A stretch of 37,277 nt of DNA from a virus. Numbering within the stretch: the stretch's first letter is position 1; each line of letters begins with the position of its first letter. The stretch covers positions 1 to 37,277 of the IMG/VR virus record IMGVR_UViG_3300044838_000164; one strand, 5' to 3'. The notes beneath the pieces were generated by a model. The model had not been told where the DNA came from. It ran no database searches and saw only the letters and a list, made by a program, of their open reading frames with translations. Positions 1,260 to 37,277 of the stretch are shown in pieces. The position numbers were made by a program, and so were the translations under genes.

Positions 1260-1287
1260 TTGCAAACATACTTCACTGAAGTATCAT
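1260..1287 (+). promoter_or_regulatory. Promoter with palindromic operator
   Basis: A possible -35 box TTGCAA (1260-1265) and -10 box TATCAT (1282-1287) are 16 bp apart. The spacer holds a perfect 17-bp palindrome, ATACTTCACTGAAGTAT (1268-1284), whose core ACTTC-N3-GAAGT ends on the first T of the -10 box. The ATG of the 37-aa gene is 6 nt after the -10, so the transcript may be leaderless. The same arrangement recurs before the HTH gene at 4665. Confidence 0.55.
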
Positions 1288-1293
1288 TGATAT

Positions 1294-1407
1294 ATGAAAA
1301 ACACACACAAAAAAGCTGCGAAAGTAAATTGGGCGGCGGCGGCGAAAAAAGCGTGGATGACGCGAAGAGCGAACGCCCGCAAATCGAGCCGGAAAAACAA
1401 AGCCTAA
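1294..1407 (+). CDS. 37-aa highly basic peptide
   Basis: A short frame of 37 aa begins MKNTHKKAAKVNWAAAAK and ends RKSSRKNKA. About 40% of residues are Lys or Arg and there is no acidic residue. The middle (AAAAKKAWMTRRANAR) could form an amphipathic, nucleic-acid-binding helix. It follows the operator-bearing promoter at 1260-1287, and the structured leader of the next gene begins 4 bp after its stop. A role in binding DNA or RNA is only an inference from charge. It is too short for the frame alone to be convincing; the promoter geometry and composition are the main support. Confidence 0.5.
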   Translation: MKNTHKKAAKVNWAAAAKKAWMTRRANARKSSRKNKA

Positions 1408-1410
1408 TTC

Positions 1411-1509
1411 GTTCCCGATCTGCGCGCGCGCGAACCGCGTGCGCAGCGGGGAGCGATTAAACTCCCGTCCCGCGAATGCGGGATGAACCACAAAAAGGAA
1501 AAGAGTAAA
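1411..1509 (+). promoter_or_regulatory. Structured 5' leader, copy A
   Basis: The stretch from GTTCCCGATCTGCGCGC to the SD-like AAAGGAAAAGAG precedes the ATG at 1510. A 10-bp hairpin pairs 1420-1429 with 1437-1446 (one G-U). The flanking TTCCC (1412-1416) can pair with GGGAG at 1449-1453, but that segment can pair instead with CTCCC at 1462-1466. A further hairpin, TCCCGC-GAAT-GCGGGA (1468-1483), stands before the SD. The same architecture recurs exactly 300 bp downstream. It may be a cis-acting RNA regulator or attenuator; no U-tract terminator is seen. Confidence 0.5.
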
Positions 1510-1704
1510 ATGAAACTATACGCAACACGCAGCGGCAAACCGGCTGAGAAAATCACAATCGGCGGACTCCAAAAACACGTCCGCGAATTTTTCGCGGGCC
1601 TGACCATTCCCGAGGGGATCGAACCCTTCGCCCTTGTCTTATCGGCGGAACCAATCGGGATCGAAGCGGCGCTCGATGAAATCATCCGCCGCAACCGGGA
1701 GTAA
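1510..1704 (+). CDS. 64-aa hypothetical protein between two leaders
   Basis: The ATG at 1510 is chosen because AAAGGAAAAGAGTAA lies just upstream, the same ribosome-binding context as at 1816. The product (MKLYATRSGKPAEKITIGG...) is a small alpha/beta-type protein with an acidic C-terminal helix (AALDEIIRRNRE) and no known domain. It sits between two copies of the same structured leader and just before the DUF932 gene, so both are probably expressed under the same control. No function can be assigned. Confidence 0.6.
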   Translation: MKLYATRSGKPAEKITIGGLQKHVREFFAGLTIPEGIEPFALVLSAEPIGIEAALDEIIRRNRE

Positions 1705-1710
1705 AAAACC

Positions 1711-1815
1711 GTTCCCGATCTGCGCGCGATCCCACAGCGTGCGCAGCGGGGAACGGATTCCCGTTCCTGCCGCCGGATTCACTGGCGGTGAACCAAAAAG
1801 GGAAAGAGTAAAACT
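1711..1815 (+). promoter_or_regulatory. Structured 5' leader, copy B
   Basis: This second copy lies 300 bp after copy A and directly upstream of the DUF932 start at 1816. Hairpin 1 pairs 1720-1728 with 1738-1746. GTTCCC (1711-1716) can pair with GGGAAC (1749-1754), while GGAACGG (1750-1756) can pair instead with CCGTTCC (1761-1767) across an ATTC loop. The last hairpin, GCCGCC/GGCGGT (1769-1789), differs in sequence from copy A but keeps the stem, followed by the shared TGAACCA and an AAAGGGAAAGAGTAAAA ribosome-binding stretch. Confidence 0.5.
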
Positions 1816-2787
1816 ATGGCTCATAACTTAGCCACAAAAAAAGACGGCTCTGCCGCCATTGTCTTTGCCGGGGAAACGCCCTGGCATCGGCTTGGGGTCA
1901 AAGTCGAGAAAGCGTTCGACGCCAAGACGGCGCTCGAACTGGGGGGGCTCGACTTCACCGTCGAGAAAGCAAAGATCGCCTGCGCGGACACTCGCGCGGT
2001 GATTCCTGATCGATTCGCGATCCGGCGCACGGACACAAAGGACGTGCTCGGAATTGTGACCGATTTTTACCAGCCATTGCAGAATCGCGAGGCGTTCGCG
2101 TTCTTCGATGGAGTATTCGGCAAAGACAAAGCGCGCTACGAAGTCGCGGGCGCGCTCGGGAAAGGCGAACGGGTTTGGCTGCTGGCCAAGCTTCCCGGTG
2201 ATTTTTCAATCATCGGCACGGACACACTCGAAAAGTTTCTGCTCCTGACAAACGGGCACGACACCAGCGAGGCGGTCCGGGCGCGCTTCACTCCGATCCG
2301 CGTTGTCTGTCAGAACACGCTCAATGCTGCGCTCTCCGGAGTGCAAAGCGAAGTGCGGGTCCAGCACATCGGCGACGTCAAAGGGAAACTGGAAATCGCG
2401 GGCAAGCTTCTCAAAGCGGCCGGGATTTATTACACGGAAGTCCAGACCGTGTTTCGCGGCTTCGTCCGGAAACAACTCAACGCGAAGGCCGTTCGCGGTT
2501 ACGCGCTCCAGGTCATTGCCGGAGACAATTCCAAGGAAGAGGATCTTTCGCCCATTGGCCGGAAGTCACTCGACCGGATTGTCGATCTTCATGACGGCGG
2601 ACGCGGAAGCAAACTCAAAGGAGTGCGCGGAACCTTGTGGGGGGCATACAACGCAGTCGCGGAGTATGTCGATCACGACGGCGTCAAGAAAAGCGTCGGG
2701 TTCATCGAACACGGTCGCGGACTGGAGTTGAAGCAGCGCGCCTTCAAGGTCGCCTGCGAGCTCGCCACCGGCAAAGGCTCCAACTGA
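1816..2787 (+). CDS. DUF932 phage/plasmid-like protein
   Basis: The 323-aa product has the hallmarks of the DUF932 (TIGR03299, phage/plasmid-like) family: GETPWHRLG at 19-27, an ITDFYQPLQN-type strand (here VTDFYQPLQN) at 81-90, GERVWLLAKLPG at ~117-128, and TPIRVVCQNTLNAAL at ~159-173. The length is normal for the family. These proteins are common in phages and plasmids of many phyla, and their biochemical role is not established. The gene follows structured leader copy B with a good SD (GGGAAAGAG), and its stop is one base before a 56-aa gene that leads into the large ParB-like gene. Confidence 0.9.
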   Translation: MAHNLATKKDGSAAIVFAGETPWHRLGVKVEKAFDAKTALELGGLDFTVEKAKIACADTRAVIPDRFAIRRTDTKDVLGIVTDFYQPLQNREAFAFFDGVFGKDKARYEVAGALGKGERVWLLAKLPGDFSIIGTDTLEKFLLLTNGHDTSEAVRARFTPIRVVCQNTLNAALSGVQSEVRVQHIGDVKGKLEIAGKLLKAAGIYYTEVQTVFRGFVRKQLNAKAVRGYALQVIAGDNSKEEDLSPIGRKSLDRIVDLHDGGRGSKLKGVRGTLWGAYNAVAEYVDHDGVKKSVGFIEHGRGLELKQRAFKVACELATGKGSN

Positions 2788-2788
2788 A

Positions 2789-2959
2789 ATGAAAAAATCA
2801 ATAAGCCTTGCCGAGTTCAAGGAACGCATCGCGCAAATCGTCCATCCCGGCCAGACGGCCGGGGTGGCGGTGAAGGAAACAAATCAAACGGTTGTTCGCA
2901 AGCCTAGCGACCGAGGCTACTACCCGAAAAAAACAAATGAAAGGAACCACAGAAAATGA
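2789..2959 (+). CDS. 56-aa hypothetical protein
   Basis: A short frame (MKKSISLAEFKERIAQIV...) begins one base after the DUF932 stop and ends in an ATGA overlap with the ParB-like gene at 2956, as expected for a coupled gene. The N-terminal half could be one helix. The C-terminal half is basic and rich in Arg, Lys and Asn (SDRGYYPKKTNERNHRK). No domain is recognised. Tight spacing on both sides is the main evidence that it is translated. Confidence 0.6.
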   Translation: MKKSISLAEFKERIAQIVHPGQTAGVAVKETNQTVVRKPSDRGYYPKKTNERNHRK

Positions 2960-4626
2960 GTAAGACAGGAAAACCAGTTCTCGACGCTCTGATCGCGGCG
3001 TCGGAACCGTTAAACGAGGAGGTCATCCGACTTCTGCCGATCAAATTGTTGCGCATCAGCAACGTTCCCGGCCAACGTCATCCCACGGCAAAGGACGTGA
3101 CGGAGTTGGCCGCGTCCATGAAAGCCGGCGGGCAAATCACGCCCGCCATTGTCCGAGAAGATCCAAAGCAGAAAGGAAGCTACGAGATCGCGGCCGGCGC
3201 CAGGCGCTTTGTCGCGGCGCAGTCGTTAGGCTGGAAAACTCTGGCCTGCGTCGTGCGCGAGCTCGACGATGACAACTTCGAATTGAAGTTGCTGGTCGAG
3301 AACCTGCAGCGGTTGGATCCCGATCCCTGCGAGGAAGTGAAGGTGGTCGAGCGCCTGATTAAACGCGGCATCAAATCAACCGCCGAGATCAGCGCCCACG
3401 TGGGCAAGAGCGAACATTGGGCCGAGCGCAGGATAAGGATCCTGCACGTCATCCCAAAGATTCGCGCACTATGGGAGAATGAAGATCACGGCCGCGGCTA
3501 CTACGACAGTCCACAGTTCGCGCACTTCACGCTCGACATGATGGAGTTCATCGGATCGCTGCCGGTGCCGACACAAGAGCAATTGGTCAAGCAAGGCAGC
3601 TATTGGATCACCAATTCAAAAACTCGCAAAGAGTTGGAGCGGCAATTCGATCGCAACCTTCGTTGCCGTCTCGATCAAGCGCCCTTCGATCTCAAGGATC
3701 CAGCGACGTTCGTTGGTGGATGCGGCCCTGGCTGCGCCTGCGATTCATCGAAGCAAGCTAACTTGTTCGACTTCGAAAGTAGCGGCGCGCGGTGTTTGAA
3801 TCCGTCCTGCTTCAAAGCGCGGACCGCCAAAGCGCAAAGCGCGCAACTGGAAAAGATCGAGAAAGAACACGGCAAAAAATTGCCGGTCGTAAGTAAGGAT
3901 CCATCCGGAGAGATCGAGCTAAGCGACAAACGTCGCATCCATCCGACCTGGGAACGCGACATCACGCCGAAGCCGACAAAGCAGAACACGATCAAGGCGA
4001 TCGTGCTGAAAGACGGCAAGTTCGATGTTGGCTACGTGCCGAAAGCTATAGCCGCCCGCGTCCCTGCCGGCGGCTCGGTTGAGGACAAATCAAAAAGCAA
4101 ATCGCTCACCGAGAAGAAATCGGCGCTACAAGCGCGCCGGTGGAATCTGGTGCACGGCGAATTGCTCAAGGCGCTCGACGCATCCGCGCACAAGGATTGC
4201 ATCGAGACGGTTGAAGATGTCGTTGCGATCTTCGGCCTGTCTTACATGGCCTACTACACAGACAGCACGCGATGCTGGCGCGAACTCGACGAACGGAAAA
4301 GAAAAGGCTTTCCGGTGAGCGAGTATGAAACCGATCCAACGTTTCATCGCCTGCACAAAAAGGGAAAAGGATTCGACAAGGATCGACGCGCCGCACTCTG
4401 GAACGGATTGAAGCCGGTGTTCAAACGCGTAATGTCCGGTTGGTATCGGGTCGGGGATATTCACAAAGCGGTGCCGGCCATGCGGCGGGTGGCGAAGTTA
4501 ATCAGCTTCCCGATCGACGAGCGCAAGCGCGCGGCCGATCTCACGATCAAAGTTCCCAAGACCTGGGGAAGCGGGCTCGACGCGCACACGCTCGAACCGA
4601 TCAAAATCAGAAGAAAAAAGTCTTGA
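2956..4626 (+). CDS. ParB/RepB/Spo0J-family protein with Cys cluster
   Basis: The 556-aa product has an N-terminal ParB domain (~25-120): LLPIKLLRIS, a GARR box at 81-84 (GERR in chromosomal ParB) and VENLQR at 114-119. A KorB-like helix-turn-helix region (~130-175, including AEISAHVGKSEHWAERRIRIL) follows. Residues 256-285 carry a Cys pattern, CGPGCAC...LFDF...CLNPSCF, seen in phage and plasmid ParB-like proteins and probably binding zinc. The C-terminal ~270 aa are Lys-rich and unassigned. No ParA ATPase is adjacent, so a role in replication or gene control is as likely as partition. It overlaps the 56-aa gene by 4 bp. Confidence 0.85.
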   Translation: MSKTGKPVLDALIAASEPLNEEVIRLLPIKLLRISNVPGQRHPTAKDVTELAASMKAGGQITPAIVREDPKQKGSYEIAAGARRFVAAQSLGWKTLACVVRELDDDNFELKLLVENLQRLDPDPCEEVKVVERLIKRGIKSTAEISAHVGKSEHWAERRIRILHVIPKIRALWENEDHGRGYYDSPQFAHFTLDMMEFIGSLPVPTQEQLVKQGSYWITNSKTRKELERQFDRNLRCRLDQAPFDLKDPATFVGGCGPGCACDSSKQANLFDFESSGARCLNPSCFKARTAKAQSAQLEKIEKEHGKKLPVVSKDPSGEIELSDKRRIHPTWERDITPKPTKQNTIKAIVLKDGKFDVGYVPKAIAARVPAGGSVEDKSKSKSLTEKKSALQARRWNLVHGELLKALDASAHKDCIETVEDVVAIFGLSYMAYYTDSTRCWRELDERKRKGFPVSEYETDPTFHRLHKKGKGFDKDRRAALWNGLKPVFKRVMSGWYRVGDIHKAVPAMRRVAKLISFPIDERKRAADLTIKVPKTWGSGLDAHTLEPIKIRRKKS

Positions 4627-4652
4627 AATTTGAAACTTCAACGAAGTATCTT
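4623..4652 (+). promoter_or_regulatory. Promoter with ACTTC-N3-GAAGT operator
   Basis: TTGAAA (4623-4628) and TATCTT (4647-4652) form a -35/-10 pair with an 18-bp spacer. The palindrome ACTTCAACGAAGT (4635-4647) fills the spacer and ends on the first T of the -10 box, as at 1270-1282. The HTH gene begins 12 nt after the -10. This fits autoregulation by that HTH protein (inference). Confidence 0.55.
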
Positions 4653-4664
4653 TCTGATTGAACC

Positions 4665-5054
4665 ATGAACATATCCGCTGACCTGAAAGTCTGGAGAAAC
4701 GTCGACGATTCGAACAATGGTCGCGGCGACTTCACTCAACGGGAGGCCGCCCAGCACCTGGGCGTGCCTTTCAAGACCTACGTGAATTGGGAACAAGGCA
4801 CGCGTGGTCCGAGTGAGCTCGCACTCCAAACGATCAGGCAGCGGATGGCTTCTAAACCGGGGGGGCGGCTGGCCACGCTTCAACGAAAGAGTAAACAAAC
4901 GCCAAAGCGCCCCGGGCCTACACCCAGGCGCATCGAACCACCAACGCGGGCCAGCAACCAAAGAGTAAATGAAAAAACAAAACGAAAGTCCCGATCAATT
5001 CGTTCCCCTCAGACCGCGCGATCTCATCGGCCCCGCCCGAAAGGTCGGCGCTAA
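4665..5054 (+). CDS. Cro/Xre-type helix-turn-helix regulator
   Basis: The 129-aa product has one helix-turn-helix at ~23-50: FTQREAAQHLGVPFKTYVNW followed by EQGTRGPS, the typical Xre pattern of scaffold helix, recognition helix and W-E-x-G-x-R-x-P turn. The C-terminal ~60 aa are very basic, with Pro and Ser (KRKSRSIRSPQTARSHRPRPK), and may be disordered or add nonspecific DNA binding. The last 86 bp overlap the AAA+ gene in another frame, so the tail is under double coding constraint. An operator-like palindrome overlaps its promoter. It is a likely phage repressor or early regulator; the target is inferred. Confidence 0.7.
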   Translation: MNISADLKVWRNVDDSNNGRGDFTQREAAQHLGVPFKTYVNWEQGTRGPSELALQTIRQRMASKPGGRLATLQRKSKQTPKRPGPTPRRIEPPTRASNQRVNEKTKRKSRSIRSPQTARSHRPRPKGRR

Positions 5055-5727
5055 ACTATTCGCGCGCGCTCGCGCTCTGCACGCGGCCTCCAGCCGGTCC
5101 GGAGTCTTAATATGGCCAGGCGCCCCACGAAACTGGAAGCTGTTGCTTTACGGTTCGCCCGGCTCTGGCAAAACGTCGATCGTCCGGATGATCCTGCCGG
5201 TGTTGGGATCCGGCTTCGACGTTGAGAAAGTAAACGGCCGTAACGTCTCGACGGATCTTGTCCGGGAATGGCAGCGCAACGCTTGCTTCCGGTCGCTCTT
5301 CGGCGGCTGGAAAATCAAGCACATCGAAGAAGTCGATCTTGTGCCGCAAGTCGCACAAGATTTAATGCTGACCTTTCTCGATGATCTTCCGGACCGAAAC
5401 GCGATCATCTGCACAAGCAACTTGTCGCTCGAAACACTGACCGAACGATTTCAGACTCGCTTCGAGCTAGTGCGCGTGAACGGGCCAAAGGATCTCGAGC
5501 TCGCAGCCTGGTTGCTGAAACGCTGGAAGATCCCGCAACCGATTTGCGATTTCATCGCCCTGGGCGCGTGCGGCAACGTGCGCCAGGCGCTGCTCGACGC
5601 GACCAGCTTTCAGACACTCGGACATTTCGACGAACGGCCCAAGCCGCCGATTGTATCGAAGGATCCAGCGGCAACTGCGCGCGCACTCAAAGCATGGGAT
5701 ACGATGCGAGGAAAGGGGGCAGCATGA
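4969..5727 (+). CDS. AAA+ ATPase, clamp-loader/DnaC-like
   Basis: The 252-aa product has Walker A GSPGSGKT at 62-69, a degenerate Walker B KIKHIEEVDLV at ~115-125 (E-E-V-D), and a sensor-1-like strand IICTSN at 146-151 with TERFQTRFELV after it. The C-terminal region (WKIPQPICDFIALGACGNVRQALLDA) resembles the lid helices of clamp-loader or Holliday-junction AAA+ proteins. It probably acts on phage DNA during replication or recombination. The ATG follows an ACCAAAGAGTAA stretch like those before 1510 and 1816. It overlaps the HTH gene by 86 bp and ends in an ATGA overlap with the next gene. Confidence 0.8.
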   Translation: MKKQNESPDQFVPLRPRDLIGPARKVGAKLFARARALHAASSRSGVLIWPGAPRNWKLLLYGSPGSGKTSIVRMILPVLGSGFDVEKVNGRNVSTDLVREWQRNACFRSLFGGWKIKHIEEVDLVPQVAQDLMLTFLDDLPDRNAIICTSNLSLETLTERFQTRFELVRVNGPKDLELAAWLLKRWKIPQPICDFIALGACGNVRQALLDATSFQTLGHFDERPKPPIVSKDPAATARALKAWDTMRGKGAA

Positions 5728-5936
5728 AGATCATCTTAAACGAAGAAGTCCGAACTTTACTGAAAGAGCTCGATGACGTGATGCAGAAGTTTCATGCAGC
5801 CACAGCGGTTCTCGCCGACAGAACCACGCCACTGCCAACCGCGATCGATATTGGTGCGGAGCGCGAATCGATTCGCACTCACATCGTGGGTATCGCTTGG
5901 CGTCTAAACAAAGCATCTACCGGGAGAAAAGAATGA
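5724..5936 (+). CDS. 70-aa hypothetical helical protein
   Basis: It starts in an ATGA overlap with the AAA+ gene, with GAAAGGGGGCAGC upstream as SD, and ends in an ATGA overlap with the radical SAM gene. The protein (MKIILNEEVRTLLKELDD...) is mostly helical and acidic in its first half, with a short basic end. No domain is recognised. Its place between an ATPase and a radical SAM enzyme suggests a small subunit or adaptor, without further proof. Confidence 0.7.
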   Translation: MKIILNEEVRTLLKELDDVMQKFHAATAVLADRTTPLPTAIDIGAERESIRTHIVGIAWRLNKASTGRKE

Positions 5937-34192: not shown

Positions 34193-34381
34193 ATGGGACG
34201 AGAAGCCACACTCATCAGCGTGAGCGGAATTCCAAAGCCGGTGATCTCAAAGATCGATCAAGCCGCGGACTTACGGCATATGTCGCGAAGCGCAGTGATT
34301 GCCCAAACGCTCGAAAAGGCTTTTTCTGCGGATCGAGTCCCCGCAGCGAAAAAGAGCGGGAAGAAAGGCGGCCGGAAATGA
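34193..34381 (+). CDS. Ribbon-helix-helix regulator
   Basis: The 62-aa protein has one strand (EATLISVSGIP) then two helices (KPVISKIDQAADLRHM, SRSAVIAQTLEKAF), the ribbon-helix-helix plan of CopG/Arc-type DNA-binding proteins. The C-terminus is basic (KKSGKKGGRK). It is likely a transcription regulator of the int/early divergent region, whose direct repeats are next to it. No toxin partner is adjacent. It overlaps the next gene by ATGA. Confidence 0.7.
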   Translation: MGREATLISVSGIPKPVISKIDQAADLRHMSRSAVIAQTLEKAFSADRVPAAKKSGKKGGRK

Positions 34382-36630: not shown

Positions 36631-37277
36631 GCAACCACCCTCGCATCGAACCGCACGCATGGACGCACACTGGCGATCATGTCCTGATCGTAAAATGCTT
36701 GAATCGCGACGGGACTTCGCACAACGGATTTGTTTGGCCAAAGGCCGGCCCGGTTAAAAATGATTTTTGGAGCCGTCAGCCGACATGCGGCAGTGGTGGC
36801 CTTTTCGGTTGGCCCTGGGGATTTGCTGTAGGCGAAGGACGAGATCTTGATGCATGCGCGCCATGGCTGGTCTTTCGGGCGCGCCCGGAAAATGTGGTCG
36901 GAGATGTAGAGGGAGCTAAGTGCAAGGCTGTCCCCGGAGAAAACGGCGAGCTCCCCGAGGTCGTTTATTACGGAACACAGGCCGGGGCGATGAAGTTCAC
37001 CCATGCCGGCCGGCTCGCACTGATTCAAAAAAATAGCTCTTCGGCTTCAACGAGTGGCTACCTCTCTTCGGCTTCAACGAGTGGCTACCTCTCTTCGGCT
37101 TCAACGAGTGGCGACCTCTCTTCGGCTTCAACGAGTGGCTACCTCTCTTCGGCTTCAACGAGTGGCTACCTCTCTTCGGCTTCAACGAGTGGCGACCGCT
37201 CTTCGGCTTCAACGAGTGGCGACCGCTCTTCGGCTTCAACGAGTGGCGACCGCTCTTCGGCTTCAACGAGTGGCTAC
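36627..37277 (+). CDS. Repeat-containing protein, 3' end cut by window
   Basis: The frame starts by ATGA overlap and has no stop before the end. The N-terminal ~135 aa (HAWTHTGDHVLIVKCLNRDG, GGLFGWPWGFAVGEGRDLDA, PWLVFRARPENVVGDVEGAK, ELPEVVYYGTQAGAMKFTHA) are a folded domain related to the DUF7666-type phage proteins. From residue 137 on, a 9-aa unit (SSASTSGYL/GDL/GDR) repeats nine times to the window edge. The repeats resemble pentapeptide/SxAxxSG-type beta-helical repeats. Truncation is likely an assembly break in the repeat. The function is unknown. Confidence 0.7.
   Translation, partial: MSNHPRIEPHAWTHTGDHVLIVKCLNRDGTSHNGFVWPKAGPVKNDFWSRQPTCGSGGLFGWPWGFAVGEGRDLDACAPWLVFRARPENVVGDVEGAKCKAVPGENGELPEVVYYGTQAGAMKFTHAGRLALIQKNSSSASTSGYLSSASTSGYLSSASTSGDLSSASTSGYLSSASTSGYLSSASTSGDRSSASTSGDRSSASTSGDRSSASTSGY
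37035..37277 (+). repeat. 27-bp tandem repeat, nine units
   Basis: A 27-bp unit beginning (A/C)(G/T/C)CTCTTCGGCTTCAACGA repeats nine times with no spacer to the last base. Differences are confined to TAC/GAC (Tyr/Asp) and CTC/CGC (Leu/Arg). Each unit encodes nine residues in the frame of the gene at 36627. The repeat probably continues past the window. Confidence 0.95.

Follow-up and report, generated by a model that had tools for sequence, protein, structure and literature searches.

REP and BIME elements are GC-rich inverted repeats that lie past stop codons and occur in more than one copy. Stable hairpins that lack a U-tract are found within E. coli operons where differential mRNA decay has its boundaries, and one operon can have several of them (PMC5927463). 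Herein we describe a pair of duplicated hairpins in a virus contig of 37,277 nt, the whole of which was analysed and is referred to as the window. The contig codes for terminase, portal, head protease, head protein and tape measure as well as an integrase, and it is therefore a temperate tailed phage (siphophage). Its early operon is arranged in the order of a ParB-like gene (1-621), a 190-aa gene (602-1174), a promoter, a basic 37-aa ORF (MKNTHKKAAKVNWAAAAKKAWMTRRANARKSSRKNKA; + strand, 1294..1407), hairpin A, a 64-aa ORF lying between the two hairpin cassettes (+ strand, 1510..1704), hairpin B and a DUF932 gene of 323 aa (+ strand, 1816..2787; PF06067, PHROG 1221), and a ParB_N protein gene is located at 2956-4626. 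Both small ORFs have a codon-use score of 0.47 bits/codon, with the other two frames of the 64-aa ORF scoring negative, and their codon use is like that of the long genes of the phage. The 37-aa ORF has no Pfam match, and no relatives of the 64-aa protein were found in IMG/VR, phages, Pfam or PHROGs. Between the DUF932 and ParB_N genes another very stable + strand hairpin can be observed at 2826-2870 (CATCCCGGCC AGAC GGCCGGGGTG), within a 56-aa ORF. Elsewhere in the window, a 27-bp tandem repeat in nine copies occupies 37010-37277 up to the contig end and reads SSASTSGYL in one frame, and a small protein at 34194-34380 (LISVSGIPKPVISKIDQAADLRHMSRSAVIAQTLEKAF), ribbon-helix-helix-like by eye, is a possible regulator near the integrase.

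The preliminary description proposed two duplicated structured elements ahead of the 64-aa gene and DUF932, and the present analysis supports them. In fact the shared blocks are found as described, CCCGATCTGCGCGC at 1414 and 1714 and CGTGCGCAGCGGGGA at 1438 and 1738, at an offset of exactly 300, and a 46-nt block shows 87% identity between copies A and B. Hairpin A (48 nt, + strand, 1409..1456) is composed of an outer stem 1409-1416/1449-1456, an internal loop GAU/CG and an inner stem 1420-1430/1436-1446, while hairpin B (48 nt, + strand, 1709..1756) has an outer stem 1709-1716/1749-1756, the same internal loop and an inner stem 1720-1728/1738-1746; the hairpin with an outer stem that had been suggested for each copy is thereby recovered, the outer stem having 8 bp and the inner one 11 bp in A and 9 bp in B. 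Over 51 nt the fold energy is -35.8 kcal/mol for A and -31.6 kcal/mol for B, corresponding to z-scores of -4.9 and -5.2, with 0/200 shuffles equally stable. When all 50-nt segments of the + strand were scanned, none was more stable than A, which is the strongest + strand fold, and only 2 of the 7446 exceeded B, segments over A being included in these two. Both hairpins are well beyond chance, and they are real and duplicated.

The position of the two hairpins is equally regular. Hairpin A starts 1 nt past the stop codon of the 37-aa ORF and precedes the RBS of the 64-aa ORF, and hairpin B starts 4 nt past the stop of the 64-aa ORF and precedes the RBS of DUF932. As the two small ORFs end just before the hairpins, what had been called leaders are intercistronic gaps starting directly at a stop codon, the 37-aa ORF having been overlooked in that account. 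Neither gap has a called promoter or a called + strand terminator. After both stems a U-tract is absent and CGATTAAACTCCC and ATTCCCGTTCC come next; an intrinsic terminator, which would need a run of U behind its GC stem-loop, was rejected for both hairpins, at neither of which there is a + strand call. A and B rather resemble protective stem-loops in being stable hairpins that lack a U-tract in a gap between co-directional genes. Stop-codon readthrough was considered as well and rejected: the frame past the stop of the 64-aa ORF meets TGA, and non-synonymous changes separate the copies. Reading on in frame past the 37-aa ORF meets no stop before the 64-aa ORF.

Homologues of the hairpin were sought in IMG/VR, GTDB genomes, phage records, Rfam and the closest phages, and none was found. 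With exact-arm patterns no genuine match came up in IMG/VR or among GTDB species genomes, looser and other patterns gave no match in IMG/VR and GTDB genomes, a GTDB search using the DUF932 pair gave no match either, and in Rfam nothing reached the gathering score, only chance matches below threshold being seen. A covariance model (R1) was built from copies A and B and run on 114 loci and the window as well as on the complete records of the three closest phages; below an E of 0.7 it returned solely the window and, at E 9.5e-5, locus L033, which is also the sole exact-arm match in IMG/VR. This match is rejected as a coincidence, since it falls on the antisense strand of a lysin-like gene (ORF 4363-5139, ...NSPLRAAHWCAQIGHESAG...) in which codons for SPLR and AQIG, rich in GC, resemble the hairpin arms, and since no minus-strand ORF of the window has a Pfam match. 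The closest DUF932 genes, with identities of 76% (L001), 61% (L038) and 56% (L037), are all at loci from which the hairpin is absent, and in L001 and L038 the 190-aa gene directly precedes DUF932, without the 64-aa gene in between. With no homologue found, neither covariation across homologues nor a conserved aptamer was seen, the comparison being that of two copies.

On the other hand, structure next to stop codons is common around the DUF932 genes of the relatives. The 72-nt stretches just past the DUF932 stop have a mean z of -2.4, with 32/62 below -2, although many of these structures may be intrinsic terminators; the stretches just ahead of the DUF932 start have a mean z of -0.4 (6/65 below -2), and among gene-internal control stretches 3/64 fall below -2. 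In L001, L037 and L038, GC stem-loops of 11-12 bp are located in the gap behind DUF932, while the DUF932 of the window itself has no such structure right past its stop (z 0.8). A hairpin just ahead of the DUF932 RBS was rejected as a general feature: it occurs in 15/65 cases against 3.4 expected from shuffles, yet also in 10/65 of the controls taken 400 nt upstream.

Since post-stop structure is common in the relatives and there is a precedent in E. coli, A and B are read as intercistronic stem-loops. To this reading, in which they would form a duplicated intercistronic stem-loop and RBS cassette with a 3'-protective/processing or insulating function, we give about an even chance. Each cassette would consist of three parts: a very stable stem-loop starting from the stop of the ORF before it, then a further small hairpin, and then an A-rich RBS. 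The promoter at 1260-1287 would give a polycistronic RNA, in which the stop-proximal hairpin would shield the message before it against 3'-5' exonucleases and/or keep the translation units apart, and the second hairpin together with the A-rich site would serve the initiation of the next gene. Because the closest DUF932 loci have neither the gene nor the hairpin, the 64-aa gene and its flanking repeats look inserted or locally duplicated in the lineage of the window, and the flanking position of the two copies is what one would expect had the gene entered, or moved within, the early operon along with one cassette copy. If this is right, the locus shows cleanly how a phage operon can be assembled from repeated stem-loop and RBS cassettes, and around phage DUF932 genes it is the stop-proximal structure that recurs and not the leader structure.

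The differences between the copies bear on the question whether the hairpins are functional at all. Ten of the 51 columns differ between A and B, and they are distributed as 5/9 in the apical loop, 3/34 in the stems and 0/5 in the internal loop, so that the apical loop has changed more than the stems (Fisher p = 0.0055). All three stem-base differences keep the pairing and no pair is broken: 1409-1456 changes on both sides from U-A to C-G, and 1412-1453 changes on one side from U-G to U-A. The evidence of covariation from two copies had been called limited, which agrees with our count, as the former is the only two-sided change in the main hairpin. This pattern favours the hairpin, judged from just two copies of one genome, while the conservation of the stems may also come from a recent duplication or from a site acting at the DNA level. 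The repeats could be a neutral relic without any function, left by a tandem duplication or by a gene insertion, which would agree with the finding of no hairpin conservation outside this contig; we hold it unlikely, as the loop bases have changed significantly more than the stem bases and every stem change keeps the pairing.

Downstream of its main hairpin, copy A folds a second small hairpin at 1466..1485 (+ strand), and the A-rich RBS tail at 1491..1509 (+ strand; CAAAAAGGRAAAGAGTAAAA) is duplicated at 1794-1813 with 95% identity. In copy B, minimum free energy and pair probabilities give a second domain at 1758..1804 (+ strand) in which UUCCC 1758-1762 pairs with the SD GGGAA 1800-1804, enclosing a small hairpin at 1769-1789. 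These final hairpins (1466-1485 and 1769-1789) had been said to keep their stem through compensating changes. A base-by-base alignment of them is impossible; the sequence is replaced, compensation is not demonstrated, and no covariation is therefore counted from them.

The preliminary description further took two mutually exclusive pairings as a switch. Such an RNA switch would let the left arm (L) pair with the right arm (R), or R pair with a downstream segment (T), the choice setting the RBS under the control of a ligand or protein. In copy B, L and T have UUCCC in common, R and the SD have GGGAA in common, and one G-C/A-U difference in R-T between the copies fits such an exchange. Compared with shuffled downstream sequence, the 7-bp R-T stem of B is reached by about 5% of shuffles, so that this alternative stem is marginal, while the 5-bp stem of A is reached by 37% and is at chance level. 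The alternative is 4-5 kcal/mol worse, and it does not free the RBS of B: as UUCCC occurs both in the left arm and downstream, the SD GGGAA is paired in either state, with 1758-1762 in the main one and with the left-arm UUCCC in the alternative one. Two exclusive states of similar energy that differ in the exposure of an RBS or terminator were thus not found.

A related possibility is that the ribosome itself makes the choice, namely that a terminating ribosome covers L, R then pairs with T, and the next SD is released. L sits 1-12 nt past both stop codons, within the reach of a terminating ribosome, and in simulations of copy B masking L makes the SD cheaper to open (about 2.5-3.3 instead of 4.7 kcal/mol) and raises the probability of an unpaired SD from 0.20 to 0.49-0.64, although the initiation region of B still costs about 9 kcal/mol to open. 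In copy A the simulated SD opening hardly shifts (from 1.4 to about 0.9-1.1 kcal/mol); with a ribosome placed over the left arm, the simulated change is small, about 0.5 kcal/mol for A and 1.8 kcal/mol for B. Translation-coupled control is fairly unlikely as an account of the two elements, and such an effect would be conceivable in copy B alone. With the chance-level stem in A, the energy cost, the SD paired in both states of B and the little masking effect in A, a switch common to both copies is not supported.

The RNA switch finds some indirect favour in the related phages, for L037 (1640-1720) and L125 (5740-5830) have a common 80-nt DUF932 leader with compensatory changes. This leader folds as a three-way junction, in which 4/5 pairs of the P3 stem change on both sides (GACGG/CCGUC against CCGAG/CUCGG) while the P3 loops stay similar (CGUGAA/CGUUAA), and P1 has one change from U-A to C-G. 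Its covariation is stronger than that in the window, but comes from two sequences; it has no Rfam match, and a pattern search in IMG/VR gave no more copies. It is a different structure from the hairpins of the window, which themselves have no homologues and no Rfam match, and a ligand- or protein-driven switch is in our opinion improbable. With a hairpin pair in the window against a three-way junction in L037 and L125, a more general proposal would be that the DUF932 operons of this phage group share a promoter-operator and have fast-evolving leaders regulating DUF932 translation, which here would turn on a ribosome-sensed choice of L-R or R-T pairing; this too is very doubtful. In this leader GACUC(C)G is seen twice, inside P2 and at the start codon (1667-1675 and 1730-1739 in L037; about 5767-5774 and 5833-5842 in L125), and both copies seem to vary together between the two loci, as if rivals for one partner. 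In L125 the DUF932 start at 5843 (MAHNIEIKNGRAS) passes into unrelated sequence after about 13 residues, and the gene is apparently truncated behind an intact promoter and leader.

More widely conserved is an element at the promoter. The sigma-70-like promoter TTGCAA-16-TATCAT (+ strand, 1260..1287) contains between its boxes, and overlapping the -10, the palindrome ATACTTCACTGAAGTAT (1268-1284). Its pattern ATAC-N9-GTAT occurs once in the window, where 0.07 is expected, and once per record in L001 (3901-3917), L038 (4923-4939) and L125 (5673-5689), and in all these four related records it lies at the DUF932 operon start or promoter. It is absent from the record of L037 and from five records with the 190-aa gene, in which DUF932 was not seen in the stretch read behind that gene. 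The inner bases vary and stay palindromic, being TTCA/TGAA in the window, GCGA/TCGC in L038 and GGCA/TGCC in L125. The palindrome looks like a candidate operator overlapping the -10 box and, from the records compared, is better conserved than the hairpins as a putative control element upstream. This conserved putative operator is perhaps the more useful outcome, as a handle on the regulation of the DUF932 operon. An HTH/XRE-like protein, as judged by eye, is encoded at 4665-5054 (GDFTQREAAQHLGVPFKTYVNWEQGTRGP), a candidate regulator for the putative operator, and a similar ORF is present in L001 (5918-6280).

Such a palindrome is also pertinent to the view that the hairpin repeats are DNA sites, near-perfect inverted repeats bound by a dimeric phage protein. 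The repeats are long and present in two copies, and two ParB-domain proteins are encoded nearby, the ParB-like protein (1-621) and the ParB_N protein (2956-4626). Yet parS palindromes are compact, unlike the split arms here, which are interrupted by an asymmetric internal loop and a 9-nt loop; moreover there are just two copies, both exactly between a gene end and an RBS, the repeats were not found in relatives carrying the ParB-like gene, and a separate conserved palindrome is present at the promoter. We consider a DNA site quite unlikely.

To sum up, the duplicated intercistronic cassette can be set against the described systems as follows. As in the riboswitches and attenuators of Rfam, A and B are structured RNA ahead of an RBS with a possible alternative pairing, but they have no Rfam match, conserved aptamer or supported alternative state. 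As with REP and BIME elements, they are GC-rich inverted repeats past stop codons, but they are two copies only and not dispersed. The second hairpins (1466-1485 and 1769-1789) lie shortly upstream of the next RBS as does the 5' stabilising hairpin left in papB-papA after RNase E processing (PMC5927463); they differ between the copies, and the likeness is one of position only. The nearest counterparts are the intercistronic protective stem-loops of malE-malF, puf and menBCE (PMC5927463): here the sequence is another one, the operon is that of an uncultivated phage, and there are two near-identical copies with a duplicated RBS tail, while A and B are likewise stable, free of a U-tract, directly past a stop codon and between operon genes, and more than one hairpin per operon is known there (PMC5927463) as it is here.
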